From Daphnia pulex (Eukaryota > Arthropoda > Branchiopoda > Diplostraca > Daphniidae), in contig NC_060028.1 in assembly GCF_021134715.1 (NCBI RefSeq), forward strand, positions 8,097,482 through 8,161,481: DNA of 64,000 nucleotides, written 5' to 3'. A program made the translations under genes and the position numbers. Below, piece after piece: positions 2,502 through 64,000 of the stretch. The stretch's first letter is position 1. Each line of letters begins with the position of its first letter. The notes under the pieces are model-generated. The model saw only the letters and a program-made list of their open reading frames with translations. It did not search any database and was not told the origin of the DNA.

Positions 2502-4246
2502 TCTTACGCAAATTTCTTTTTGGCTTAATACGAAGAATCCACACTTGAAAAGGATAATTTAATTAACATTTTTCGTAAATCTTTTAAAATCAAAACAAAC
2601 GAAGAAAAAAATAACGTGAAATAACGTGATACAAAACATATGATGGCTCTAAATATCGATCATTTGTTTTTTCTTGTAAATCGATAAGATTCCGATATGC
2701 AAATTTTTTTCCAATTTTAACACTAATAAATTAAAGTGAATGCACGTTTACACGATTCGGAAAATACAATTGAATCTCAGGAATAAATATGGGTTGAACT
2801 CACGAAAACGCTAGGTTTAAATTGCGCGCGTTTTATAGAGCGGTTAGAACCCACTTGACATGTACATTTTTGTATCTTTAAAAAATTCTAAAAGATAAAT
2901 ATTATTTTTCCTTTCTTTATTCTCGAAGTAAAAGTCAGAAAGGACGTTACCAATAAACAAGGACCTCCTAGTCCTAGGCATTACATGATATTTCGGCGCT
3001 AAAACTACTAGCGTTACGGCGGACGATAAATGCGCTACCTGTATTGGAAATCGAATAACTTATCCTTTCCCTTTTTTTCTCGGTATCTTTCTTTTCCACG
3101 AACATTTTCTTTGCATTTGGAGAATCTCATTGAAAGGAATACGATGTAAATTATATTGCTTGGGTTACAATCTCCTCTTGGTGCTTAATTTACTCTTTAT
3201 TGACGGAGAAAACGCTGGCTTAGCACAATCTCGAAGGCCAACAAATAAAGAAAGCTATAACAAATGTTTTAGTCTATTAAATTACAACCTATTTTCGTTT
3301 CCTATAGAATTCGTGTAAGTCGGTGCAATAGAGATACATCCGTGGGTGTTATCAGTCTCTCGGAAATAGACAGGTGGATCAATAAATGGATCAATATTTT
3401 AAGATATAGCAACTAGCAAGCAGCTAACTTGCGGTACATGCATGAAAATAGATGCAAGGGAGGGGGGTACGAAGTACGAGAGAGGCGGCCTATATCCGTA
3501 GATGGTTTCAAAAGCGAATTGGCAGCGTCGCACTCGCAGAGTTAACAAAAGTGTACGACGGCTTTTGTGATTCATCGTGTAGACTACTCGCAGGTACGGC
3601 CTCGATTTTAACTTTGGAATTTGTTTAAAAACATTTCGTGAATTAACACTTCGGTTGTGATTTGTCGTAGTGGAAAGGGAAATAAGGTTGTTAGATGAGC
3701 ATTTATAGTTTTCGGTCCAACAGTAAATATATCTCGTGTCTTGCATCCAACGAGGGTTTCACAAGGGGCTTATGGAAACGGGCGCGGGCGATGATTGTTG
3801 CCGGCGTCCCCCCCTTCTTTTTCTTTGAGCAAAGATGGCGTCTCTGAGCCACATGGCCTATCCTTTGTATTGTTCTTGATGTCGAAACTGCGATTTCAGA
3901 ACATTGCTCAACGTCTTGCTGAAGCCTTTTAATTGCAATCCATTTTAATTTTCATTGTGCTTTTTATTATTTGGTGAGGAAGTCGGGTATTCACACCATC
4001 AATTACAACGTTTATAACTCACGTCGTAGTTGATTCTGAATGATTTGTGTCGTTGAATTATTTGAAGTGTAGAACATTTTCGTAACTGGGTAGTAGATAG
4101 GTTCATCAGTTGTGTGGTTTATTGATGTTACCTGTAATTTAATGTAATTTTGTCTTTGCAGAATTTCTGTACATAGTTGTGTGTACATACAAATCGGTAA
4201 TTGGTTTGGGGCACAACAGTACTAAACCAGTGGCAATCTTGTACGA
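2502..4246. other. Intergenic promoter region between the RTN4IP1 homologue and lingerer
   Basis: AT-rich DNA with a short GC-rich stretch around 3775-3860 that contains AAGATGGCG (3832-3840), a match to the YY1/Pho-type promoter element. A probable 5'UTR intron of lingerer ends at TTTGCAG (4155-4161); GTGAGG at 3974 would be a suitable donor, giving a 188-bp intron. I see no coding potential in the short frames around 3130-3746. The two flanking genes are divergent, so both promoters must lie here. Confidence 0.5.
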
Positions 4247-7200
4247 ATGAGAATGAGTTCAACAGCTAAGAAAGGGGATAAAGGCAAGTCCTCCACCAAT
4301 GCTTCTCAGACTTTATCCAAGGACACAGCATCCCATTCTTCCTCAAAGATGGCAAATTCCAAAACTGGAGAGTCAAAAAATGATTCCAGCAAAGCAGTTG
4401 ATCAAATCAATCCTAAGCTCCTGGTAAGTTCGATGCCTACAGTTTTCATTTAAAATCTGTAACTGGTGCAAATAATGATATTTTTTTTTTAATGTTTAGC
4501 CTACTGCTGAGCAACTTCGTATTGCTCAGATGATCAGTGACAGCAGAAAGGATGATCCAGAACTTCCAGAAAAAGTCAACAAGGTGTGCAGTTACATTGA
4601 AGAATGTATTTTGTATTTTCTAACTCAGTTCTTTGTGTATTTTTAGCTGGTGGAGTTGACCAACTGCAGTCCTGATGCAGCAATCATTGCTCTCCATGAT
4701 TCAAATAATGATTTGGAACATGCCATTGCAGTCCTCCTTGATGGAGAAACTGAGGTAGTTACTTTTGTGAAAAATAAATTAGTGAATATGTACCAATTTG
4801 ATCAATTTTAGGGTGACTGGGAAGTGTCAGGGAAGAAGAAGAAACCCAAGCAGTCAGCTCAGCAACCAGTAGGTGGTGATGGAACGGAGGGTGGCAGTGG
4901 AACAGGAGCCGGACGTGGAAGGGATCGCGAGAGGGACAGGCCAAGAAGCAGTCGTGGTGGCCCACCTAGGCTGCGAGGACGCGGCCGTGGTCGAGATAAC
5001 AAGGAAAATGTGGAAGAAGGTGATGGGGAATTTGGCGGATCTCGTGGAAGAGGATCTCGTAGCGGCCCACGTATGTCAAATGGACCTGGAAGAGAAGGAT
5101 CTAGTGGTCGAGGTAGTGGTGGTGGTGGTCGAGGTGGTCGAGGAGGTTTCCGCCGAGGACAACGTGGCCCTGCCCCAGTCGCTGATACATGGGAGGAAGG
5201 TGCCGAGTACTCAGCCATGACAAACGTTGAGCCTTGGGGAGTCGACTTTCCATCGGCAGAAGATTGGGATAACGAAGAATACATCGGTTCATTGGTTGAA
5301 ACAAAGGTGTTTACACCGTCCCAATCGGCTGCAGCAAATGTTCCAGCACCAACACCCGTTATTCCCGAACCTACGCCGCTGACGAACGGTTCAACATCAA
5401 TTTCTAACGGCGGCGGTAGCAGCAGCAGTAGCCATGTCGAACCTGTTGTTCCTGTTCCTGCTCCTCCACCTCAGGTTCAATATTCCACCATCAACAACAG
5501 CGCGCAACAAGGCATCGACTTGAATGCACTGCTCCAAAAGACGTCTGGCGTCACAGTGGCTGGATCGTCGATGCAGCAACAATTCCTACAATATAGCCAA
5601 GCAACTGATGCACTAAAAGCTGCTATGGGTGTTGGCGGAGTTCCTTCATCCAACATGAAATCCGCGAAGCCTTTGCGAGCTAAAATCCCTCCACCTTCTA
5701 AAGTATGTTTAATTCCCATTAAGTAAATTTGTAATTGAACTAACGGCTGCTTTATTGTTCCTTGTGCAGATTCCTCTCTCTGCAGTTGAAATGCCGGACG
5801 ATCCAATTGTTTCCGGACTGGATGTGAAATTTGGAACCCTTGATTTTGGTATCGAACCTTCCGGTTTCGATATGAACATCGACGTTTCGATGATTCCTTC
5901 ATCCACAGCGAACATGAATATGTCGAAGCAGCCAGATCATCATCAGCAACAACAACAACAGCAGCAGCAGCAGCAGCAGCAACATCATCATCATCAACAT
6001 CAACAGCAGCAGCAACAACATCAACAGCAGCAGCAACAACATCAACAGCAGCAACAACAACAACAGCAGCAATCGAAACATGGACTTATGTCGAAGATGG
6101 AACAGCAGTACGCCAGTAATGCTTCTGCTCCACAGCCGCCTGCACCTTCAACATTGCCCAAACCCGATTCTTCTCTAGGTGGTTTTTCCGCGTCGTCAGC
6201 ATCGGCTTCTCAACAATCGATGGCGACGACATCCACTCAAGTAAAATCGACCAATAGTCCAGCGTCGTATCCATACGGCACGTCTTACGCGCCTCCCGGC
6301 GTGAATAGTGCTTCTACTCAGGCAACGACTACGGGTGTCTCTCAGCCGGCTGGTGCTTATCCCTCCAGCAGTCAGACAAGTATGTGCCTACCTGAAAATG
6401 AATTCCTGTATTTGCTTGGCCAACATTATTTTAATCCGCATATCTACTTTCAAGGCGGTGTGTACAGTAACAATTCATCCAACTCGGGATATCAAGGTGC
6501 TAGCAGTCAAACCGCTTACGGTTCTTATGCCCAGCAACAGCCACAACAGCAACCTCAGCAACAACAGCAGCAGCAACAACAACAATCTAGTTACCAGACG
6601 TACAACAACAAATTGAGCGCTGCCAGTAGCTTGAATGATGCATCGAGCTCCGTCTCTTCGCTAAGAGGAGACATGCCCAGTGCTACGGCTGCGTCGGCTT
6701 CTTCTAGGCAACCCAGCGCTGTAACGTCTGCAGCTACTGCGGCAAACAAGCAATCGGGCACGACGCTTGCTGCTAGTGGTTCGGGACTTCCCAACATGCC
6801 TCCTGGTGTGCCAATGCTTGGTCCTGGCAGTTTCATCATGGGCCAGGCTCCCGGTCTGCCCTATTATGCCGCCGCCGCTGCTGCTGGTATCCAGCATCAA
6901 CAAGTGTACAGTCTTGAAGACATGCAGTATCGGTATCCCCACCTAGCTGCAGGGTACTATGATATGGGCTATCAATCGCCTACCAGTTTGGGCGGAGGAC
7001 GCGATGGAACTCTTGCTTCGTTGGCTTATGCCACTGGAACCGACGCTAAGTTCTCGCGCAATGAAAATAACTCTCCAGTTCCTACCTCGCTATCTCAGGT
7101 TAGTTGTTAGTAGTGTATAAATTTTTTTATGAACTTTGATACTTATTCCCATCTTGGTATGAACAGAATGCTGCTCAAAGTCATGGCGGAGCGTTTATTA

Positions 7201-49786: not shown

Positions 49787-50100
49787 ACGGAGAGAGCGTT
49801 ACAAATGTGTCTGGCGGTTCGGGGAAAATGTTAATTTGACTACTTTCTTATTGTTTCTTCGACCCACTTCATTTGCACTTGCCATTTGACTCGTTAATAC
49901 GCTTTTTCCACACAATGTACATTTACTTTCGAAACGAAATCAGTGAACTGGAATTTATTTCCAACTAAATTTGCTACCCCCTTTTTTAAAAAAAAATCAG
50001 CTGATTGACCAAGTTTGAAATTCATTGGAATTATTCCAATTGCTCAGGAAACATTTTTTGGAAAATGTCTTTAAATAAGTCGCTAGATTCTTTACCTTGT
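49787..50100. other. Unique sequence left of the tandem array
   Basis: AT-rich single-copy DNA between the secreted-precursor promoter and the array. It ends TCTTTACCTTGT at 50100, where array homology starts abruptly. No terminal repeat or target-site duplication is recognised. Confidence 0.5.
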
Positions 50101-50229
50101 GGCGGTAGCAGCTCAACCCAGGAGCACCGGCGGTCAGTTCACAATGATACACCCATCAGACAGGTCTTTTTTGATACAATTTTTGTTTGCGGCGTCACCG
50201 TCTATCCGTTCCCAAAGTCGGGCTTGGAA

Positions 50230-50300
50230 GACTTGGCCGGGATTCGAACCCGGATCGACCGATTACCAGCTCGGCGCACTGACAACTGTGCTAAGTGACA
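50230..50300 (-). ncRNA. tRNA-derived element with Pol III A and B boxes (unit 1)
   Basis: On the minus strand TAGCACAGTTG (50293-50283) fits the A-box consensus TRGYNNARNNG exactly, and GGTTCGAATCC (50250-50240) fits the B box exactly. The D arm pairs GCAC with GTGC. The T arm is a perfect 5-bp stem CCGGG/CCCGG around TTCGAAT. The anticodon arm has a 5-bp stem but an 8-nt loop (GCTGGTAA). The positions where an acceptor stem should form (TGTCACT and CCAAGTC) do not pair, so this is not a functional tRNA but a tRNA pseudogene or SINE-head-like Pol III unit. No T-run terminator follows closely. Confidence 0.7.
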
Positions 50301-50340
50301 CATCTACCATCAAAACTTTTTGGGACGAATATATTGGATT

Positions 50341-50699
50341 TATTTACAACCCCCTACGGCAGCTAGCAACCATTTTTTCCAGCATCTCCAGGATCTTAAC
50401 GGATTTGCACCAGCACGACCTCTGAAAATTCCAGAGTCATACCAAGGACTTCTCTACCTATTTCTACAACCACCCGCAGCAGTTAGCAACCAAGGAAAAC
50501 GACCTTCAGCAATATCCTCCAGGATCTTCCACGGAACGAGCCACCTCTGCACCTTTAAGGAAAATGCATCATGGCCTTGACTTCTCCACCTCCCGAGACG
50601 TCTTCCCTAATTTTTTAAGATTGTTCTTGAATTCACCAGAAACCGCCCGCAGCAGTTAGCAACCAAGGAAAACGACCTTCAGCAATATCTTCCAGACAC
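50341..50699 (+). repeat. Three diverged ~60-bp subrepeats within the array unit
   Basis: TACAACC...GCAG(C/T)TAGCAACCA occurs at about 50344, 50464 and (without the TACAACC lead) 50641. Copies 2 and 3 share GCAGCAGTTAGCAACCAAGG and the following ACGACCTTCAGCAATATC; copy 1 is more diverged. Spacings are about 120 and 173 bp. Confidence 0.8.
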
Positions 50700-50804
50700 T
50701 TCGAGGCCACCAGGATTAATACGCCCCCCGACGACCTCGAGACGACCCGCCAACTACACAAAGAACGACACACTCTTCTAGACGCCACCGCTGCTCATCT
50801 CGGA

Positions 50805-50840
50805 TATAAAAAGGAACATTTTATTATCCAAAATCAGTCA
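50805..50840 (+). promoter_or_regulatory. Pol II core promoter in each array unit (TATA + Initiator)
   Basis: TATAAAAAGG starts at 50805, and the arthropod Initiator TCAGTC lies at 50834-50839 with its A at 50836, 31 nt downstream, the expected spacing. A partial downstream element, CGTTG, sits at +28. Copies are at 52991, 55177, 57363, 59549, 61735 and 63921. AATACA at 50909-50914, 73 nt past the start, followed by a GT-rich stretch, resembles an LTR R region with its poly(A) signal. Confidence 0.6.
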
Positions 50841-50925
50841 ACGACTACGAGGGCAGACAGCCCGTTGCGCAATCGTTTGAGATGTAACTGTGTTGTGTCC
50901 CGTTCTGAAATACAGTTTGTTAGCA

Positions 50926-51339
50926 CATTTTTCTTGTAAAAAGTCCTTTCATATCTTGTTGAAATTTCACATCGGTCGACCAGGGCCGTGGCTGGCCTCT
51001 CCCCTTAAGACAACCGTCTCACCGGCGCAGCCACCCAGCACAGGAGCAGCAGTAGGAAAGAGCATCGGCTTTTCCTACCTATTCTCAGGATCACCGGACA
51101 TATCCACGACTCAGGATTCCGCTGTTTCCACCACCGAGACACTCTCTTCGCCAAGCAGGACCTTCGAGGGCCACGTCGTCTTCAAGCCACTCTGCACTAA
51201 CAGCAAGGGACCCATCATCTTCATGACACCATTTACCTACGACGTAGATCATCGGCGCTGTTTCTACTCTGCCATCGAGGCCTTCGGGGCTATGCAGCTC
51301 CAAGTCACCATCGCAGCACGAGAGGACTTCGCATCATGA
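50926..51339 (+). other. Open frame without start codon in the array unit
   Basis: A frame is open from 50890 to the stop before 51340 but lacks an ATG near its left end. It reads RPGPWLASPLKTTVSPAQPP and then SRTFEGHVVFKPLCTNSKGP. It is identical in every copy. I do not recognise it. It lies just downstream of the promoter, where a Gag-like product of an LTR element would start, but there is no motif to support that. Confidence 0.2.
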
Positions 51340-51705
51340 TATTCCAGCTCCCCCTCCCACCATTGTCTACATCATCAATCTTTCTTCATCATCAAGCCTC
51401 ATCCAGATTAGTATCCGGACTCAGCCAAAGCTGATTTTAATTTTTTCCTTCACCATCCTCCAAAGTCATCCATCTGGATCGGCGGAGCTGTTTTTATCTT
51501 CGACGGGATCCCCCCGGGAACACGCCCAGCCACTCGGGACGCATTCGTCTGGACCACAATATCCGCCCGCAGAAGGGCCCTGGCAGGCCCCGGATCTTCG
51601 CCCGACTCGTCTTCATGAGACATCGAGGTTTCCACCTCCACCTAACCCGGCCCCTTGTGGGCCTTGCTGAGTCACCATTTTTAACCTTCAACGTCGTCTA
51701 GTCTT

Positions 51706-51858
51706 CTGGATTTGCCATATTTTCTTTGAATTGTTCGTTACCTTCCTGGTCTACCTAACCTAACCTGCTGCCAACGTGTTCTACGCCTGGATTCGCCATT
51801 CTTTCCTGGAATTGTTCGTTACCTTTCTGGTATACCTAACCTAACCTGCTGCCCACGT
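51706..51858. repeat. Two 72-bp direct repeats with CCTAA motifs
   Basis: Copies at 51706-51777 and 51787-51858, period 81 bp, differ at a few positions. Each ends with GTATACCTAACC.. or GTCTACCTAACC.. followed by CTGCTGCC. CCTAACCTAACCT (51754-51766 and 51835-51847) equals the complement of the arthropod telomere repeat TTAGG. Confidence 0.85.
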
Positions 51859-51902
51859 CTGGTCACCACTTCTACATTTCTCTGGATATACATCGCCCGC
51901 GT

Positions 51903-51962
51903 CCGGAGTTGAACCCGACTCCGTCGGGGTGCTGCGTCACCGCCTTGCCGTATTGGCCATTT
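51903..51962 (-). ncRNA. Second, weaker tRNA-like element in the array unit
   Basis: On the minus strand TGGCCAATACGG (51959-51948) fits the A box with one mismatch, and GGTTCAACTCC (51915-51905) fits the B box with one mismatch. A GCC/GGC D stem surrounds a loop with GG, and the T stem pairs at 4 of 5 positions. No acceptor stem forms. It has the same orientation as the stronger element and is repeated every 2186 bp. Confidence 0.4.
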
Positions 51963-52286
51963 GGGATATTATTCACTGAACCAAGACACCTACTAACTGG
52001 AAGACCCACCAACATCGGAATGGACAAAAGAACTAGACTTAGGAGTGCAGATAACCGCAGAACACCACTACGGGTGGCCCCTTGAGCCTGATCTATACAT
52101 GCTACCCCTTGCGGGACATGCTCGGACGGTCCGACGGAGGACTCTCCTACCTTTTAAGCCAGGTCTGGCCCCCTTCCCACCTGAAGCCGTCCAGGGTCTC
52201 CAACACTGTCTGCTACGCCAGTGTCGTCAACTTCCTCTAGGCTCCAGGATCGGTCTCTCAAGGCACACCACAGCGTCCCAACCGTC

Positions 52287-54472
52287 GGCGGTAGCAGCTC
52301 AACCCAGGAGCACCGGCGGTCAGTTCACAATGATACACCCATCAGACAGGTCTTTTTTGATACAATTTTTGTTTGCGGCGTCACCGTCTATCCGTTCCCA
52401 AAGTCGGGCTTGGAAGACTTGGCCGGGATTCGAACCCGGATCGACCGATTACCAGCTCGGCGCACTGACAACTGTGCTAAGTGACACATCTACCATCAAA
52501 ACTTTTTGGGACGAATATATTGGATTTATTTACAACCCCCTACGGCAGCTAGCAACCATTTTTTCCAGCATCTCCAGGATCTTAACGGATTTGCACCAGC
52601 ACGACCTCTGAAAATTCCAGAGTCATACCAAGGACTTCTCTACCTATTTCTACAACCACCCGCAGCAGTTAGCAACCAAGGAAAACGACCTTCAGCAATA
52701 TCCTCCAGGATCTTCCACGGAACGAGCCACCTCTGCACCTTTAAGGAAAATGCATCATGGCCTTGACTTCTCCACCTCCCGAGACGTCTTCCCTAATTTT
52801 TTAAGATTGTTCTTGAATTCACCAGAAACCGCCCGCAGCAGTTAGCAACCAAGGAAAACGACCTTCAGCAATATCTTCCAGACACTTCGAGGCCACCAGG
52901 ATTAATACGCCCCCCGACGACCTCGAGACGACCCGCCAACTACACAAAGAACGACACACTCTTCTAGACGCCACCGCTGCTCATCTCGGATATAAAAAGG
53001 AACATTTTATTATCCAAAATCAGTCAACGACTACGAGGGCAGACAGCCCGTTGCGCAATCGTTTGAGATGTAACTGTGTTGTGTCCCGTTCTGAAATACA
53101 GTTTGTTAGCACATTTTTCTTGTAAAAAGTCCTTTCATATCTTGTTGAAATTTCACATCGGTCGACCAGGGCCGTGGCTGGCCTCTCCCCTTAAGACAAC
53201 CGTCTCACCGGCGCAGCCACCCAGCACAGGAGCAGCAGTAGGAAAGAGCATCGGCTTTTCCTACCTATTCTCAGGATCACCGGACATATCCACGACTCAG
53301 GATTCCGCTGTTTCCACCACCGAGACACTCTCTTCGCCAAGCAGGACCTTCGAGGGCCACGTCGTCTTCAAGCCACTCTGCACTAACAGCAAGGGACCCA
53401 TCATCTTCATGACACCATTTACCTACGACGTAGATCATCGGCGCTGTTTCTACTCTGCCATCGAGGCCTTCGGGGCTATGCAGCTCCAAGTCACCATCGC
53501 AGCACGAGAGGACTTCGCATCATGATATTCCAGCTCCCCCTCCCACCATTGTCTACATCATCAATCTTTCTTCATCATCAAGCCTCATCCAGATTAGTAT
53601 CCGGACTCAGCCAAAGCTGATTTTAATTTTTTCCTTCACCATCCTCCAAAGTCATCCATCTGGATCGGCGGAGCTGTTTTTATCTTCGACGGGATCCCCC
53701 CGGGAACACGCCCAGCCACTCGGGACGCATTCGTCTGGACCACAATATCCGCCCGCAGAAGGGCCCTGGCAGGCCCCGGATCTTCGCCCGACTCGTCTTC
53801 ATGAGACATCGAGGTTTCCACCTCCACCTAACCCGGCCCCTTGTGGGCCTTGCTGAGTCACCATTTTTAACCTTCAACGTCGTCTAGTCTTCTGGATTTG
53901 CCATATTTTCTTTGAATTGTTCGTTACCTTCCTGGTCTACCTAACCTAACCTGCTGCCAACGTGTTCTACGCCTGGATTCGCCATTCTTTCCTGGAATTG
54001 TTCGTTACCTTTCTGGTATACCTAACCTAACCTGCTGCCCACGTCTGGTCACCACTTCTACATTTCTCTGGATATACATCGCCCGCGTCCGGAGTTGAAC
54101 CCGACTCCGTCGGGGTGCTGCGTCACCGCCTTGCCGTATTGGCCATTTGGGATATTATTCACTGAACCAAGACACCTACTAACTGGAAGACCCACCAACA
54201 TCGGAATGGACAAAAGAACTAGACTTAGGAGTGCAGATAACCGCAGAACACCACTACGGGTGGCCCCTTGAGCCTGATCTATACATGCTACCCCTTGCGG
54301 GACATGCTCGGACGGTCCGACGGAGGACTCTCCTACCTTTTAAGCCAGGTCTGGCCCCCTTCCCACCTGAAGCCGTCCAGGGTCTCCAACACTGTCTGCT
54401 ACGCCAGTGTCGTCAACTTCCTCTAGGCTCCAGGATCGGTCTCTCAAGGCACACCACAGCGTCCCAACCGTC
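52287..54472. repeat. Array unit 2
   Basis: Complete copy; no difference from unit 1 noticed. Confidence 0.95.
52416..52486 (-). ncRNA. tRNA-derived element (unit 2)
   Basis: Same A box, B box, D arm and T arm as the copy in unit 1. Confidence 0.7.
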
Positions 54473-56658
54473 GGCGGTAGCAGCTCAACCCAGGAGCACC
54501 GGCGGTCAGTTCACAATGATACACCCATCAGACAGGTCTTTTTTGATACAATTTTTGTTTGCGGCGTCACCGTCTATCCGTTCCCAAAGTCGGGCTTGGA
54601 AGACTTGGCCGGGATTCGAACCCGGATCGACCGATTACCAGCTCGGCGCACTGACAACTGTGCTAAGTGACACATCTACCATCAAAACTTTTTGGGACGA
54701 ATATATTGGATTTATTTACAACCCCCTACGGCAGCTAGCAACCATTTTTTCCAGCATCTCCAGGATCTTAACGGATTTGCACCAGCACGACCTCTGAAAA
54801 TTCCAGAGTCATACCAAGGACTTCTCTACCTATTTCTACAACCACCCGCAGCAGTTAGCAACCAAGGAAAACGACCTTCAGCAATATCCTCCAGGATCTT
54901 CCACGGAACGAGCCACCTCTGCACCTTTAAGGAAAATGCATCATGGCCTTGACTTCTCCACCTCCCGAGACGTCTTCCCTAATTTTTTAAGATTGTTCTT
55001 GAATTCACCAGAAACCGCCCGCAGCAGTTAGCAACCAAGGAAAACGACCTTCAGCAATATCTTCCAGACACTTCGAGGCCACCAGGATTAATACGCCCCC
55101 CGACGACCTCGAGACGACCCGCCAACTACACAAAGAACGACACACTCTTCTAGACGCCACCGCTGCTCATCTCGGATATAAAAAGGAACATTTTATTATC
55201 CAAAATCAGTCAACGACTACGAGGGCAGACAGCCCGTTGCGCAATCGTTTGAGATGTAACTGTGTTGTGTCCCGTTCTGAAATACAGTTTGTTAGCACAT
55301 TTTTCTTGTAAAAAGTCCTTTCATATCTTGTTGAAATTTCACATCGGTCGACCAGGGCCGTGGCTGGCCTCTCCCCTTAAGACAACCGTCTCACCGGCGC
55401 AGCCACCCAGCACAGGAGCAGCAGTAGGAAAGAGCATCGGCTTTTCCTACCTATTCTCAGGATCACCGGACATATCCACGACTCAGGATTCCGCTGTTTC
55501 CACCACCGAGACACTCTCTTCGCCAAGCAGGACCTTCGAGGGCCACGTCGTCTTCAAGCCACTCTGCACTAACAGCAAGGGACCCATCATCTTCATGACA
55601 CCATTTACCTACGACGTAGATCATCGGCGCTGTTTCTACTCTGCCATCGAGGCCTTCGGGGCTATGCAGCTCCAAGTCACCATCGCAGCACGAGAGGACT
55701 TCGCATCATGATATTCCAGCTCCCCCTCCCACCATTGTCTACATCATCAATCTTTCTTCATCATCAAGCCTCATCCAGATTAGTATCCGGACTCAGCCAA
55801 AGCTGATTTTAATTTTTTCCTTCACCATCCTCCAAAGTCATCCATCTGGATCGGCGGAGCTGTTTTTATCTTCGACGGGATCCCCCCGGGAACACGCCCA
55901 GCCACTCGGGACGCATTCGTCTGGACCACAATATCCGCCCGCAGAAGGGCCCTGGCAGGCCCCGGATCTTCGCCCGACTCGTCTTCATGAGACATCGAGG
56001 TTTCCACCTCCACCTAACCCGGCCCCTTGTGGGCCTTGCTGAGTCACCATTTTTAACCTTCAACGTCGTCTAGTCTTCTGGATTTGCCATATTTTCTTTG
56101 AATTGTTCGTTACCTTCCTGGTCTACCTAACCTAACCTGCTGCCAACGTGTTCTACGCCTGGATTCGCCATTCTTTCCTGGAATTGTTCGTTACCTTTCT
56201 GGTATACCTAACCTAACCTGCTGCCCACGTCTGGTCACCACTTCTACATTTCTCTGGATATACATCGCCCGCGTCCGGAGTTGAACCCGACTCCGTCGGG
56301 GTGCTGCGTCACCGCCTTGCCGTATTGGCCATTTGGGATATTATTCACTGAACCAAGACACCTACTAACTGGAAGACCCACCAACATCGGAATGGACAAA
56401 AGAACTAGACTTAGGAGTGCAGATAACCGCAGAACACCACTACGGGTGGCCCCTTGAGCCTGATCTATACATGCTACCCCTTGCGGGACATGCTCGGACG
56501 GTCCGACGGAGGACTCTCCTACCTTTTAAGCCAGGTCTGGCCCCCTTCCCACCTGAAGCCGTCCAGGGTCTCCAACACTGTCTGCTACGCCAGTGTCGTC
56601 AACTTCCTCTAGGCTCCAGGATCGGTCTCTCAAGGCACACCACAGCGTCCCAACCGTC
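54473..56658. repeat. Array unit 3
   Basis: Complete copy; no difference from unit 1 noticed. Confidence 0.95.
54602..54672 (-). ncRNA. tRNA-derived element (unit 3)
   Basis: Same A box, B box, D arm and T arm as the copy in unit 1. Confidence 0.7.
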
Positions 56659-58844
56659 GGCGGTAGCAGCTCAACCCAGGAGCACCGGCGGTCAGTTCAC
56701 AATGATACACCCATCAGACAGGTCTTTTTTGATACAATTTTTGTTTGCGGCGTCACCGTCTATCCGTTCCCAAAGTCGGGCTTGGAAGACTTGGCCGGGA
56801 TTCGAACCCGGATCGACCGATTACCAGCTCGGCGCACTGACAACTGTGCTAAGTGACACATCTACCATCAAAACTTTTTGGGACGAATATATTGGATTTA
56901 TTTACAACCCCCTACGGCAGCTAGCAACCATTTTTTCCAGCATCTCCAGGATCTTAACGGATTTGCACCAGCACGACCTCTGAAAATTCCAGAGTCATAC
57001 CAAGGACTTCTCTACCTATTTCTACAACCACCCGCAGCAGTTAGCAACCAAGGAAAACGACCTTCAGCAATATCCTCCAGGATCTTCCACGGAACGAGCC
57101 ACCTCTGCACCTTTAAGGAAAATGCATCATGGCCTTGACTTCTCCACCTCCCGAGACGTCTTCCCTAATTTTTTAAGATTGTTCTTGAATTCACCAGAAA
57201 CCGCCCGCAGCAGTTAGCAACCAAGGAAAACGACCTTCAGCAATATCTTCCAGACACTTCGAGGCCACCAGGATTAATACGCCCCCCGACGACCTCGAGA
57301 CGACCCGCCAACTACACAAAGAACGACACACTCTTCTAGACGCCACCGCTGCTCATCTCGGATATAAAAAGGAACATTTTATTATCCAAAATCAGTCAAC
57401 GACTACGAGGGCAGACAGCCCGTTGCGCAATCGTTTGAGATGTAACTGTGTTGTGTCCCGTTCTGAAATACAGTTTGTTAGCACATTTTTCTTGTAAAAA
57501 GTCCTTTCATATCTTGTTGAAATTTCACATCGGTCGACCAGGGCCGTGGCTGGCCTCTCCCCTTAAGACAACCGTCTCACCGGCGCAGCCACCCAGCACA
57601 GGAGCAGCAGTAGGAAAGAGCATCGGCTTTTCCTACCTATTCTCAGGATCACCGGACATATCCACGACTCAGGATTCCGCTGTTTCCACCACCGAGACAC
57701 TCTCTTCGCCAAGCAGGACCTTCGAGGGCCACGTCGTCTTCAAGCCACTCTGCACTAACAGCAAGGGACCCATCATCTTCATGACACCATTTACCTACGA
57801 CGTAGATCATCGGCGCTGTTTCTACTCTGCCATCGAGGCCTTCGGGGCTATGCAGCTCCAAGTCACCATCGCAGCACGAGAGGACTTCGCATCATGATAT
57901 TCCAGCTCCCCCTCCCACCATTGTCTACATCATCAATCTTTCTTCATCATCAAGCCTCATCCAGATTAGTATCCGGACTCAGCCAAAGCTGATTTTAATT
58001 TTTTCCTTCACCATCCTCCAAAGTCATCCATCTGGATCGGCGGAGCTGTTTTTATCTTCGACGGGATCCCCCCGGGAACACGCCCAGCCACTCGGGACGC
58101 ATTCGTCTGGACCACAATATCCGCCCGCAGAAGGGCCCTGGCAGGCCCCGGATCTTCGCCCGACTCGTCTTCATGAGACATCGAGGTTTCCACCTCCACC
58201 TAACCCGGCCCCTTGTGGGCCTTGCTGAGTCACCATTTTTAACCTTCAACGTCGTCTAGTCTTCTGGATTTGCCATATTTTCTTTGAATTGTTCGTTACC
58301 TTCCTGGTCTACCTAACCTAACCTGCTGCCAACGTGTTCTACGCCTGGATTCGCCATTCTTTCCTGGAATTGTTCGTTACCTTTCTGGTATACCTAACCT
58401 AACCTGCTGCCCACGTCTGGTCACCACTTCTACATTTCTCTGGATATACATCGCCCGCGTCCGGAGTTGAACCCGACTCCGTCGGGGTGCTGCGTCACCG
58501 CCTTGCCGTATTGGCCATTTGGGATATTATTCACTGAACCAAGACACCTACTAACTGGAAGACCCACCAACATCGGAATGGACAAAAGAACTAGACTTAG
58601 GAGTGCAGATAACCGCAGAACACCACTACGGGTGGCCCCTTGAGCCTGATCTATACATGCTACCCCTTGCGGGACATGCTCGGACGGTCCGACGGAGGAC
58701 TCTCCTACCTTTTAAGCCAGGTCTGGCCCCCTTCCCACCTGAAGCCGTCCAGGGTCTCCAACACTGTCTGCTACGCCAGTGTCGTCAACTTCCTCTAGGC
58801 TCCAGGATCGGTCTCTCAAGGCACACCACAGCGTCCCAACCGTC
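56659..58844. repeat. Array unit 4
   Basis: Complete copy; no difference from unit 1 noticed. Confidence 0.95.
56788..56858 (-). ncRNA. tRNA-derived element (unit 4)
   Basis: Same A box, B box, D arm and T arm as the copy in unit 1. Confidence 0.7.
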
Positions 58845-61030
58845 GGCGGTAGCAGCTCAACCCAGGAGCACCGGCGGTCAGTTCACAATGATACACCCAT
58901 CAGACAGGTCTTTTTTGATACAATTTTTGTTTGCGGCGTCACCGTCTATCCGTTCCCAAAGTCGGGCTTGGAAGACTTGGCCGGGATTCGAACCCGGATC
59001 GACCGATTACCAGCTCGGCGCACTGACAACTGTGCTAAGTGACACATCTACCATCAAAACTTTTTGGGACGAATATATTGGATTTATTTACAACCCCCTA
59101 CGGCAGCTAGCAACCATTTTTTCCAGCATCTCCAGGATCTTAACGGATTTGCACCAGCACGACCTCTGAAAATTCCAGAGTCATACCAAGGACTTCTCTA
59201 CCTATTTCTACAACCACCCGCAGCAGTTAGCAACCAAGGAAAACGACCTTCAGCAATATCCTCCAGGATCTTCCACGGAACGAGCCACCTCTGCACCTTT
59301 AAGGAAAATGCATCATGGCCTTGACTTCTCCACCTCCCGAGACGTCTTCCCTAATTTTTTAAGATTGTTCTTGAATTCACCAGAAACCGCCCGCAGCAGT
59401 TAGCAACCAAGGAAAACGACCTTCAGCAATATCTTCCAGACACTTCGAGGCCACCAGGATTAATACGCCCCCCGACGACCTCGAGACGACCCGCCAACTA
59501 CACAAAGAACGACACACTCTTCTAGACGCCACCGCTGCTCATCTCGGATATAAAAAGGAACATTTTATTATCCAAAATCAGTCAACGACTACGAGGGCAG
59601 ACAGCCCGTTGCGCAATCGTTTGAGATGTAACTGTGTTGTGTCCCGTTCTGAAATACAGTTTGTTAGCACATTTTTCTTGTAAAAAGTCCTTTCATATCT
59701 TGTTGAAATTTCACATCGGTCGACCAGGGCCGTGGCTGGCCTCTCCCCTTAAGACAACCGTCTCACCGGCGCAGCCACCCAGCACAGGAGCAGCAGTAGG
59801 AAAGAGCATCGGCTTTTCCTACCTATTCTCAGGATCACCGGACATATCCACGACTCAGGATTCCGCTGTTTCCACCACCGAGACACTCTCTTCGCCAAGC
59901 AGGACCTTCGAGGGCCACGTCGTCTTCAAGCCACTCTGCACTAACAGCAAGGGACCCATCATCTTCATGACACCATTTACCTACGACGTAGATCATCGGC
60001 GCTGTTTCTACTCTGCCATCGAGGCCTTCGGGGCTATGCAGCTCCAAGTCACCATCGCAGCACGAGAGGACTTCGCATCATGATATTCCAGCTCCCCCTC
60101 CCACCATTGTCTACATCATCAATCTTTCTTCATCATCAAGCCTCATCCAGATTAGTATCCGGACTCAGCCAAAGCTGATTTTAATTTTTTCCTTCACCAT
60201 CCTCCAAAGTCATCCATCTGGATCGGCGGAGCTGTTTTTATCTTCGACGGGATCCCCCCGGGAACACGCCCAGCCACTCGGGACGCATTCGTCTGGACCA
60301 CAATATCCGCCCGCAGAAGGGCCCTGGCAGGCCCCGGATCTTCGCCCGACTCGTCTTCATGAGACATCGAGGTTTCCACCTCCACCTAACCCGGCCCCTT
60401 GTGGGCCTTGCTGAGTCACCATTTTTAACCTTCAACGTCGTCTAGTCTTCTGGATTTGCCATATTTTCTTTGAATTGTTCGTTACCTTCCTGGTCTACCT
60501 AACCTAACCTGCTGCCAACGTGTTCTACGCCTGGATTCGCCATTCTTTCCTGGAATTGTTCGTTACCTTTCTGGTATACCTAACCTAACCTGCTGCCCAC
60601 GTCTGGTCACCACTTCTACATTTCTCTGGATATACATCGCCCGCGTCCGGAGTTGAACCCGACTCCGTCGGGGTGCTGCGTCACCGCCTTGCCGTATTGG
60701 CCATTTGGGATATTATTCACTGAACCAAGACACCTACTAACTGGAAGACCCACCAACATCGGAATGGACAAAAGAACTAGACTTAGGAGTGCAGATAACC
60801 GCAGAACACCACTACGGGTGGCCCCTTGAGCCTGATCTATACATGCTACCCCTTGCGGGACATGCTCGGACGGTCCGACGGAGGACTCTCCTACCTTTTA
60901 AGCCAGGTCTGGCCCCCTTCCCACCTGAAGCCGTCCAGGGTCTCCAACACTGTCTGCTACGCCAGTGTCGTCAACTTCCTCTAGGCTCCAGGATCGGTCT
61001 CTCAAGGCACACCACAGCGTCCCAACCGTC
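58845..61030. repeat. Array unit 5
   Basis: Complete copy; no difference from unit 1 noticed. Confidence 0.95.
58974..59044 (-). ncRNA. tRNA-derived element (unit 5)
   Basis: Same A box, B box, D arm and T arm as the copy in unit 1. Confidence 0.7.
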
Positions 61031-63216
61031 GGCGGTAGCAGCTCAACCCAGGAGCACCGGCGGTCAGTTCACAATGATACACCCATCAGACAGGTCTTTT
61101 TTGATACAATTTTTGTTTGCGGCGTCACCGTCTATCCGTTCCCAAAGTCGGGCTTGGAAGACTTGGCCGGGATTCGAACCCGGATCGACCGATTACCAGC
61201 TCGGCGCACTGACAACTGTGCTAAGTGACACATCTACCATCAAAACTTTTTGGGACGAATATATTGGATTTATTTACAACCCCCTACGGCAGCTAGCAAC
61301 CATTTTTTCCAGCATCTCCAGGATCTTAACGGATTTGCACCAGCACGACCTCTGAAAATTCCAGAGTCATACCAAGGACTTCTCTACCTATTTCTACAAC
61401 CACCCGCAGCAGTTAGCAACCAAGGAAAACGACCTTCAGCAATATCCTCCAGGATCTTCCACGGAACGAGCCACCTCTGCACCTTTAAGGAAAATGCATC
61501 ATGGCCTTGACTTCTCCACCTCCCGAGACGTCTTCCCTAATTTTTTAAGATTGTTCTTGAATTCACCAGAAACCGCCCGCAGCAGTTAGCAACCAAGGAA
61601 AACGACCTTCAGCAATATCTTCCAGACACTTCGAGGCCACCAGGATTAATACGCCCCCCGACGACCTCGAGACGACCCGCCAACTACACAAAGAACGACA
61701 CACTCTTCTAGACGCCACCGCTGCTCATCTCGGATATAAAAAGGAACATTTTATTATCCAAAATCAGTCAACGACTACGAGGGCAGACAGCCCGTTGCGC
61801 AATCGTTTGAGATGTAACTGTGTTGTGTCCCGTTCTGAAATACAGTTTGTTAGCACATTTTTCTTGTAAAAAGTCCTTTCATATCTTGTTGAAATTTCAC
61901 ATCGGTCGACCAGGGCCGTGGCTGGCCTCTCCCCTTAAGACAACCGTCTCACCGGCGCAGCCACCCAGCACAGGAGCAGCAGTAGGAAAGAGCATCGGCT
62001 TTTCCTACCTATTCTCAGGATCACCGGACATATCCACGACTCAGGATTCCGCTGTTTCCACCACCGAGACACTCTCTTCGCCAAGCAGGACCTTCGAGGG
62101 CCACGTCGTCTTCAAGCCACTCTGCACTAACAGCAAGGGACCCATCATCTTCATGACACCATTTACCTACGACGTAGATCATCGGCGCTGTTTCTACTCT
62201 GCCATCGAGGCCTTCGGGGCTATGCAGCTCCAAGTCACCATCGCAGCACGAGAGGACTTCGCATCATGATATTCCAGCTCCCCCTCCCACCATTGTCTAC
62301 ATCATCAATCTTTCTTCATCATCAAGCCTCATCCAGATTAGTATCCGGACTCAGCCAAAGCTGATTTTAATTTTTTCCTTCACCATCCTCCAAAGTCATC
62401 CATCTGGATCGGCGGAGCTGTTTTTATCTTCGACGGGATCCCCCCGGGAACACGCCCAGCCACTCGGGACGCATTCGTCTGGACCACAATATCCGCCCGC
62501 AGAAGGGCCCTGGCAGGCCCCGGATCTTCGCCCGACTCGTCTTCATGAGACATCGAGGTTTCCACCTCCACCTAACCCGGCCCCTTGTGGGCCTTGCTGA
62601 GTCACCATTTTTAACCTTCAACGTCGTCTAGTCTTCTGGATTTGCCATATTTTCTTTGAATTGTTCGTTACCTTCCTGGTCTACCTAACCTAACCTGCTG
62701 CCAACGTGTTCTACGCCTGGATTCGCCATTCTTTCCTGGAATTGTTCGTTACCTTTCTGGTATACCTAACCTAACCTGCTGCCCACGTCTGGTCACCACT
62801 TCTACATTTCTCTGGATATACATCGCCCGCGTCCGGAGTTGAACCCGACTCCGTCGGGGTGCTGCGTCACCGCCTTGCCGTATTGGCCATTTGGGATATT
62901 ATTCACTGAACCAAGACACCTACTAACTGGAAGACCCACCAACATCGGAATGGACAAAAGAACTAGACTTAGGAGTGCAGATAACCGCAGAACACCACTA
63001 CGGGTGGCCCCTTGAGCCTGATCTATACATGCTACCCCTTGCGGGACATGCTCGGACGGTCCGACGGAGGACTCTCCTACCTTTTAAGCCAGGTCTGGCC
63101 CCCTTCCCACCTGAAGCCGTCCAGGGTCTCCAACACTGTCTGCTACGCCAGTGTCGTCAACTTCCTCTAGGCTCCAGGATCGGTCTCTCAAGGCACACCA
63201 CAGCGTCCCAACCGTC
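61031..63216. repeat. Array unit 6
   Basis: Complete copy; no difference from unit 1 noticed. Confidence 0.95.
61160..61230 (-). ncRNA. tRNA-derived element (unit 6)
   Basis: Same A box, B box, D arm and T arm as the copy in unit 1. Confidence 0.7.
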
Positions 63217-64000
63217 GGCGGTAGCAGCTCAACCCAGGAGCACCGGCGGTCAGTTCACAATGATACACCCATCAGACAGGTCTTTTTTGATACAATTTTT
63301 GTTTGCGGCGTCACCGTCTATCCGTTCCCAAAGTCGGGCTTGGAAGACTTGGCCGGGATTCGAACCCGGATCGACCGATTACCAGCTCGGCGCACTGACA
63401 ACTGTGCTAAGTGACACATCTACCATCAAAACTTTTTGGGACGAATATATTGGATTTATTTACAACCCCCTACGGCAGCTAGCAACCATTTTTTCCAGCA
63501 TCTCCAGGATCTTAACGGATTTGCACCAGCACGACCTCTGAAAATTCCAGAGTCATACCAAGGACTTCTCTACCTATTTCTACAACCACCCGCAGCAGTT
63601 AGCAACCAAGGAAAACGACCTTCAGCAATATCCTCCAGGATCTTCCACGGAACGAGCCACCTCTGCACCTTTAAGGAAAATGCATCATGGCCTTGACTTC
63701 TCCACCTCCCGAGACGTCTTCCCTAATTTTTTAAGATTGTTCTTGAATTCACCAGAAACCGCCCGCAGCAGTTAGCAACCAAGGAAAACGACCTTCAGCA
63801 ATATCTTCCAGACACTTCGAGGCCACCAGGATTAATACGCCCCCCGACGACCTCGAGACGACCCGCCAACTACACAAAGAACGACACACTCTTCTAGACG
63901 CCACCGCTGCTCATCTCGGATATAAAAAGGAACATTTTATTATCCAAAATCAGTCAACGACTACGAGGGCAGACAGCCCGTTGCGCAATCGTTTGAGATG
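63217..64000. repeat. Array unit 7 (cut by the window end)
   Basis: First 784 bp of a further copy, including its tRNA-like element and TATA/Initiator promoter, so the array goes on beyond the window. Confidence 0.95.
63346..63416 (-). ncRNA. tRNA-derived element (unit 7)
   Basis: Same A box, B box, D arm and T arm as the copy in unit 1. Confidence 0.7.

Follow-up and report, generated by a model that had tools for sequence, protein, structure and literature searches.

An exact 2186-bp tandem array inside a Daphnia pulex chromosome and its probable origin from a telomere-attached retroelement

We analyzed a 64,000-nucleotide stretch of the Daphnia pulex genome (the window; C12:8097482-8161481, where C12 is the contig that holds it, NC_060028.1), the right-hand part of which is filled with exact tandem copies of a 2186-bp unit, designated u. 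This unit is probably a non-autonomous relative of a telomere-attached retroelement that was amplified into a macrosatellite and now lies in a subtelomere-type block inside C12. Sequence comparison relates u, and a second tandem unit (v) next to it, to a 4704-bp repeat (s) of chromosome ends; this kinship was seen directly in the alignments, while the mechanism behind it is one that we infer, and the retroelement origin of u is moderately supported. The locus links telomere-attached retroelements, macrosatellites, and tRNA-like (TFIIIC-type) modules, which are usually studied separately, in an animal with ordinary TTAGG telomeres, and, if the reading is correct, it documents how a chromosome end turned interior. 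All results come from one assembly, of which 133.19 Mb in 13 contigs was searched, and no title among the literature matches listed dealt with this array.

Structure of the array and of the surrounding block

Six full units and a further 784 bp lie in the window with zero mismatches among the units, as the initial annotation had recognized in describing six units and part of a seventh with an exact and uniform period. The last mismatch at a lag of 2186 was base 50100; lags of 2186, 4372, and 6558 each gave a 99% match, versus 31% for the best lag that was not a multiple. The earlier description was nevertheless an understatement, as the array runs beyond the window (C12:8147582-8176909) and comprises 13.416 copies in 29.3 kb, every copy exact. 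Numbering of u starts at the left edge of the array and not at the inferred element boundary (u910/u911). The features, in window positions, are as follows:

50100..50101, no strand: left edge of the u array against ordinary DNA, no gap
50101..64000, plus: window part of the u array, six full 2186-bp units and 784 bp, from self-comparison
50101..52286, plus: first unit, u1-u2186
50230..50304, minus: tRNA-like module with D, anticodon (6-nt loop), and T arms, A-box, and B-box, every 2186 bp
50468..50522, plus: 55-bp direct repeat, copy 1, upstream of the promoter
50641..50695, plus: 55-bp direct repeat, copy 2, 96% identity
50805..50813, plus: TATA box TATAAAAAG, u705-713, in the promoter segment common to u and s
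50834..50838, plus: initiator TCAGT, predicted start 50836 (u736)
50836..51010, plus: 175-bp segment from the predicted start to the 3' junction u910, resembling a pseudo-long terminal repeat (pLTR) or R region
51706..51858, plus: two 81-bp repeats with CCTAACCTAAC (two telomere-type repeats) in each
51899..51966 (approximate), minus: second B-box-like sequence GGTTCAACTCC, weak

The unit combines signals of RNA polymerase II (Pol II) and Pol III type, as had been proposed, with the TATA box and TCAGT on the plus strand and the tRNA-like module on the minus strand. Pfam gave no match to any of six tested reading frames of u, in agreement with the earlier statement that the unit has no mobile-element enzyme. 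Additionally, 12 of the 13 indels between u and v in their shared block were 1 to 2 bp long, and thus a coding unit was rejected. At the gathering score, Rfam matched seven tRNA-like modules and nothing else in the window, which, together with the empty Pfam result, argues against a ribosomal DNA, histone, or small nuclear RNA cluster, none of which the initial annotation had recognized either, as far as these tests reach. A telomerase-RNA gene, considered from CCTAACCTAAC, was dropped; the dimers are repeated, and nothing further in its favor was found. We also rejected a long terminal repeat (LTR) retrotransposon, with the unit being the LTR plus the internal part: inspection by eye revealed no TG..CA ends, primer-binding site, or polypurine tract at u1/u910, although the array edges and a strong-stop-like copy on contig C2 fitted this model.

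The array had been taken to be isolated and unexplained, a view that no longer holds, as it belongs to a 57.6-kb block (C12:8147582-8205231) composed, from left to right, of the u array, the v array, a 1575-bp piece, and a satellite. The v array follows with a period of 3104 bp in 4.31 exact copies and reaches C12:8190291; v and u are 84% identical over u1-255, 93.5% over u535-1870, and 79% over u1997-2186. The 1575-bp piece (C12:8190292-8191866) is succeeded by 13.4 kb of satellite (C12:8191867-8205231; period of ~127-136 bp) with 86 copies of the motif CCACCAGGTGGCGC, which we take to be CTCF-like, all on the plus strand. Genome-wide, the 1575-bp piece was found in at least 32 places, at least 29 of them within ~63 kb of contig ends (at least 9 on C8, 8 on C3, 7 on C7, 4 on C5, and 1 on C10). 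Among the matches listed, the 23 other copies that reached 1.19 kb or more were all near the ends of C3, C5, C7, and C8, with 96 to 98% identity. The matches away from ends were the query and two short fragments, one of 121 bp (C12:3701933) and one of 180 bp (C7:6787363). Telomere tracts stand directly beside copies of the piece on C3 and C5. The motif CCACCAGGTGGCGC had 1813 exact copies in the genome (836+977, versus 0+0 for the reversed control), and the first 100 places listed all fell in the final 14 kb of C1, on its minus strand. The satellite was also present at the right end of C3, on C9, where it adjoins the s block on the proximal side, and ~68-76 kb from the right end of C8 (27 of the 27 matches listed). 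A centromere satellite was dropped as a candidate because the located satellite blocks (100 of 1813 motif copies listed) lie near chromosome ends. The satellite is on the minus strand at the located right ends and on the plus strand on C12, and its orientation agrees with those of the u/s promoter and the 1575-bp piece; thus, the C12 block has its telomere side on the left. The block C12:8147582-8205231 is subtelomere-type DNA inside the chromosome, with a polarity as if a telomere had once been on its left, a conclusion that is well supported.

The array is preceded on its left by ordinary genic DNA, where 10 of the 24 frames were tested and five matched families, and the adjoining 10 kb had no telomere tract, only isolated TTAGG and CCTAA words (2 and 4). 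The block is oriented like a chromosome end whose telomere is at the left, and this polarity would also be expected from an assembly artefact in which a wrong join or an inverted segment set the true chromosome end inside C12, leaving the copy number uncertain. The last 3 kb of C12 had no TTAGG tract (three single words) and none of the seven tested repeats, and therefore that end may not be a real terminus. However, the junction and the 80 kb inspected around the u array contain no N, every internal join over 29 kb had the same tandem structure, and in this assembly the C5 arrays of s retained three single-base differences, so that assembly did not force all copies to one consensus. We consider such an artefact unlikely.

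The chromosome-end repeat s and its relation to u

In the genome search, u and v were found at this locus only, apart from fragments on C2 and C8 and hits confined to the tRNA-like module. The array does have a relative in s, which is arranged in exact or near-exact tandem copies near the termini of C3, C5, and C9 and one form of which encodes a reverse transcriptase (RT). The s units were exact on C3 and differed by the three single bases on C5, and their near-identity at three ends shows homogenisation or very recent exchange at chromosome ends in this genome. Alignment of u670-910 with s1400-1666 gave a local score of 66, versus 38 for the best of 1000 shuffles, and the promoter alone scored 44 (best shuffle, 30). 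The tRNA-like modules of u and s were 72 to 73% identical. Additionally, each unit of u and v contains TACCTAACCTAAC two times and that of s contains it a single time; the count was zero in 117 kb of other sequence.

The arrangement of promoter and 3' end was similar in the two repeats. In u, the TATA start (u705) is 31 bp from the initiator A (u736), and in s the TATA box is at 1441 and the initiator at ~1473-1475; in both, a recurrent 3' point follows the promoter at ~205-225 bp and the start at ~175-190 bp. This point is u910 in u, where it forms the edge of the array, and the C2 and C8 fragments stop no more than 2 bp from it. On C2, a copy of u738-912 (95%) stands head to head with a second arm that begins at u736 (87%), so that both arms begin at the predicted start site within 2 bp; the C8 fragment is an exact copy of u865-911. 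In s, nine junctions with eight kinds of partner fell at s1658-1667, the partners being s989, s526, s3340, s235, s618, s538, (CCTAA)n twice (C3 and C5), and satellite. No poly(A) was seen at the 3' point. The pLTR-like features of u are the promoter segment, the constant 3' end, and the inverted copy, of which there is one only (C2). A spliced-leader or small structured RNA was rejected, as shuffling did not worsen the fold of the 175-nt segment (z 0.98). Beside the C2 copy of u, at C2:10392590-10392760, a RecQ-type-helicase-like motif (IDEAHCVVTWGLDFR, by eye) was noted, with relatives elsewhere on C2.

In its long form, s carries a reverse TRANSCRIPTASE part of 4184 bp between s1893 and s3555, on C3 and C9. 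The two inserts were identical at 4183 of 4184 bp and contained frames of 568 and 649 amino acids (aa); the latter was open, identical at 649 of 649 residues, and matched RVT_1 with an E value of 6.7e-7, with no other domain above the cut-off. No GIY-YIG domain was detected in the whole 649-aa open reading frame (E up to 1) or in its last 254 aa (E up to 10). Among the matches listed genome-wide, there were two intact copies of this RT (C3 and C9) and 17 weaker ones with 30 to 47% identity, of which 13 had stops and 4 were short without stops. In the PDB, the RT had no match with an E value of 0.1 or below, and the three chains that matched at 0.74-1.2 were unrelated; NCBIfam returned Drt3a alone, at E 0.0021, far under the cut-off for that family. 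The motifs PKIHK, ADVVGLYPSIP, YIDD, and SIPYSQ of the RT are ones that we take to be Penelope-like.

The repeat is also attached to telomere repeats: s1666 was joined to (CCTAA)n on C3 and C5, and (CCTAA)n was joined to s3939 on C5, where the truncated 5' side of s carries a telomere-repeat cap. On C9, the s block meets satellite and not telomere repeats. Two further observations concern these ends. At C5:11930585-11937116, interstitial TTAGG tracts (422 and 1575 bp) are proximal to the s array, and the terminal tract is 5.7 kb. The short unit of s (L019 6282-6605 and 6816-7523) has frames of 107 and 235 aa that belong to no known family: neither had a Pfam match, and the 235-aa frame had one PDB match at E 0.43 and no viral relative. 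The 107-aa frame begins before the 3' point and crosses it, as described for pLTRs.

The tRNA-like module

The Rfam tRNA model aligned with the module of u over positions 8-63 of 71 (30.5 bits) and with that of v over 6-65; in the first 5 kb of C3, five of the six matches aligned over 8-63 and the sixth over 1-71. Our model R1, seeded with u, v, and six s modules, scored 86.5 bits on the u module, a value to be read with the fact that this sequence is in the seed. R1 found seven modules per unit in s, two in v, and one in u. Neither Rfam, at E up to 5, nor R1, at E up to 0.1, detected the second B-box region of u. R1 additionally picked up tRNA-like sequences in a 496-bp tandem array on C3 (L022 1094-3655; C3:31.1-33.7 kb), which lies between two CCTAA tracts.

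The Rfam match at the gathering score in each window unit, and the occurrence of real multi-tRNA arrays on C10 and C12, would fit a tandem tRNA gene cluster of the kind common in this genome. However, ARAGORN found no tRNA in the window, L015, or L019, whereas it detected 5, 5, and 11 tRNAs in three stretches of real tRNA arrays that served as controls. The acceptor stem in the normal register formed 1 to 4 of 7 pairs across seven modules (2 of 7 in that of u), and the 16-nt anticodon arm has a 6-nt loop. A tRNA gene array was rejected on these grounds and is extremely improbable. In Entamoeba, tRNA-type sequence also occurs in kilobase-scale arrays (PMC2652664). The Entamoeba units contain real tRNA genes, which u does not; the C10 and C12 arrays of this genome match them more closely. 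On C10 (9842650-9844150; L038), each unit of ~1423 bp contains five complete tRNAs (Arg, Pro twice, Gln, and Leu), and on C12 (L037, C12:1-5000; L039, C12:4981950-4983460), five tRNAs (Lys, Ser, Gln, Met, and Arg) occupy 1511 bp, an Entamoeba-like layout in both cases. Model-based tRNA counts in this genome may include structures that are not tRNAs.

The fold of the module was conserved across the small sample of seven related sequences: 99% of cells paired, four pairs changed on both sides (equaled by 8 of 500 shuffles), and the covariation score was reached by none of 500 shuffles and fell when the structure was slid. The number of further pair types was reached by 423 of 500 shuffles. One pair is G-U in two modules, where the opposite strand would read C-A, and thus the minus strand fits the structure better, as judged from this single pair. 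Exact patterns for the module, which carried the leader GATATGTCA or GATGTGTCA, were confined to these arrays, with 68 of 68 matches in s arrays (reversed control, 1) and 19 of 19 in u/v (control, 0).

These findings bear on two other explanations. If u were an ordinary macrosatellite, a random 2.2-kb piece would have been amplified by unequal exchange, with its TATA and B-box present by chance. Unequal exchange yields an exact period, identity, and no coding capacity, and what is seen is a homogeneous kilobase-scale array of a non-coding unit in which nearly all of the u-v indels are of 1 or 2 bp. However, none of the 1000 shuffles reached the u-s promoter kinship, the module patterns are confined to these arrays, the module covaries, and the 3' point recurs; we regard an ordinary macrosatellite as quite unlikely. 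Alternatively, selection might keep u/v and the satellite as insulators, by means of TFIIIC modules and CTCF-like motifs, a role put forward for the human 1q23.3 tRNA array and DXZ4. The covarying structure of the module and the same-strand CCACCAGGTGGCGC motifs in the adjoining satellite are consistent with such a boundary array, as is the report, in the part of PMC4041453 available, that a human tRNA tandem repeat binds CTCF. The human 1q23.3 tRNA macrosatellite and DXZ4 resemble u in combining identical kilobase units, tRNA-type sequence, and a CTCF-type motif at one locus (PMC4041453, same part). In contrast to them, the u modules are not tRNA genes, and the putative CTCF-like motif sits in the neighboring satellite. 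Moreover, CCACCAGGTGGCGC represents one satellite monomer repeated, by eye a 13-bp near-palindrome, and the located copies among its genome-wide total are in satellite blocks. A boundary function is a doubtful explanation of the array.

Comparison with telomere-attached elements and a possible origin

The closest parallels were found among retroelements of chromosome ends. According to the available portion of PMC3846280, endonuclease-deficient Penelope-like elements (PLEs) apparently prime at chromosome ends, after which telomere repeats cap the truncated 5' end; their pLTRs have TATA and initiator 20 bp apart and occur also as inverted copies, and unrelated DNA between pLTRs can move in trans. 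Like the Athena-type elements of this group, s has an RT without GIY-YIG, its 3' end rests on telomere repeats (C3 and C5), and its truncated 5' side is capped by them at C5, while u has the TATA, 20 bp, initiator arrangement and the inverted copy of the promoter segment that characterize pLTRs in the same portion of PMC3846280. Unlike Athena-type elements, u has no RT, does not lie on telomere repeats, and has no hammerhead that we found. That portion of the PLE account mentions neither tRNA-like modules in antisense orientation nor tandem arrays of exact kilobase units like those of u. In HeT-A, as described in the accessible text of PMC5537684, the 3' promoter of one element serves the next in head-to-tail arrays; u resembles HeT-A/TAHRE in having its promoter near the unit 3' end for the next unit, in its head-to-tail order, and in its centromere-ward 3' end. 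The Drosophila HTT elements are, however, non-LTR elements with a poly(A) end, whereas here the telomere repeats are TTAGG and the 3' point has no poly(A).

Since these published PLE and HeT-A features recur in u, s, and the C2 copy, we read u as a non-autonomous relative that was amplified by recombination. Pol II would start at u736 in one unit and read past the 3' terminus u910 into the next, so that the RNA would begin and end with an identical 175-nt segment. This RNA could have been reverse-transcribed in trans onto open chromosome ends, and repeated terminal addition, with unequal exchange or conversion between identical units, may have built and homogenised the array. The antisense tRNA-like module might bind the Pol III factor TFIIIC and act as a chromatin boundary or antisense promoter, which is a weaker part of the proposal. 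The block would then have become interior via end fusion, inversion, insertion, or an assembly join.

Several points weigh against this reading. The unit has no RT of its own in the six frames tested, there is no TTAGG tract at either edge of the u array, the CCTAACCTAAC dimers being inside only, and the exact period and identity require recombination and not retrotransposition alone. The 175-bp segment after the start site, taken alone, gave a weak u-s score of 34, a value that 9 of the 1000 shuffles reached. As the C3, C5, and C9 ends share DNA, some of the nine s junctions may be copies of one another; s has further breakpoints at s1893, s3555, and s3939, and the v array stops at v723, with the v 3' point near v1118. 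The RVT_1 match was barely over its cut-off (29.7 versus 29.6 bits), and the Penelope-like label of the s RT comes from motif resemblance and structure, not from a tree. A hammerhead motif, which PLEs often carry, was missing from u, v, s, and the long form in a pattern search of both strands, and from u in Rfam at E up to 5. With both acceptor strands slid by up to 3 (best of 49 placements), 5 to 6 of 7 pairs formed in eight modules, and therefore the module might form a shifted acceptor stem; among 10 control tRNAs, sliding gave 7 pairs in 9 and 6 pairs in 1. The chromatin function of the module is a presumed one.

More tentatively, a telomere-attached retroelement family may give rise to homogeneous macrosatellites whose conserved antisense tRNA-like modules recruit TFIIIC at chromosome ends, with one copy buried in C12. 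If our main reading of u is correct, the u/s pair offers a way to test directly whether tRNA-like modules aid such elements in reaching or marking chromosome ends.

The families matched in the genic DNA to the left of the array were UBAP2/lingerer, Ints3, Psq, Frizzled, and BTB-BACK, and the UBAP2/lingerer-like frame contains repeats rich in CAG/CAA at window positions 5936-6585.

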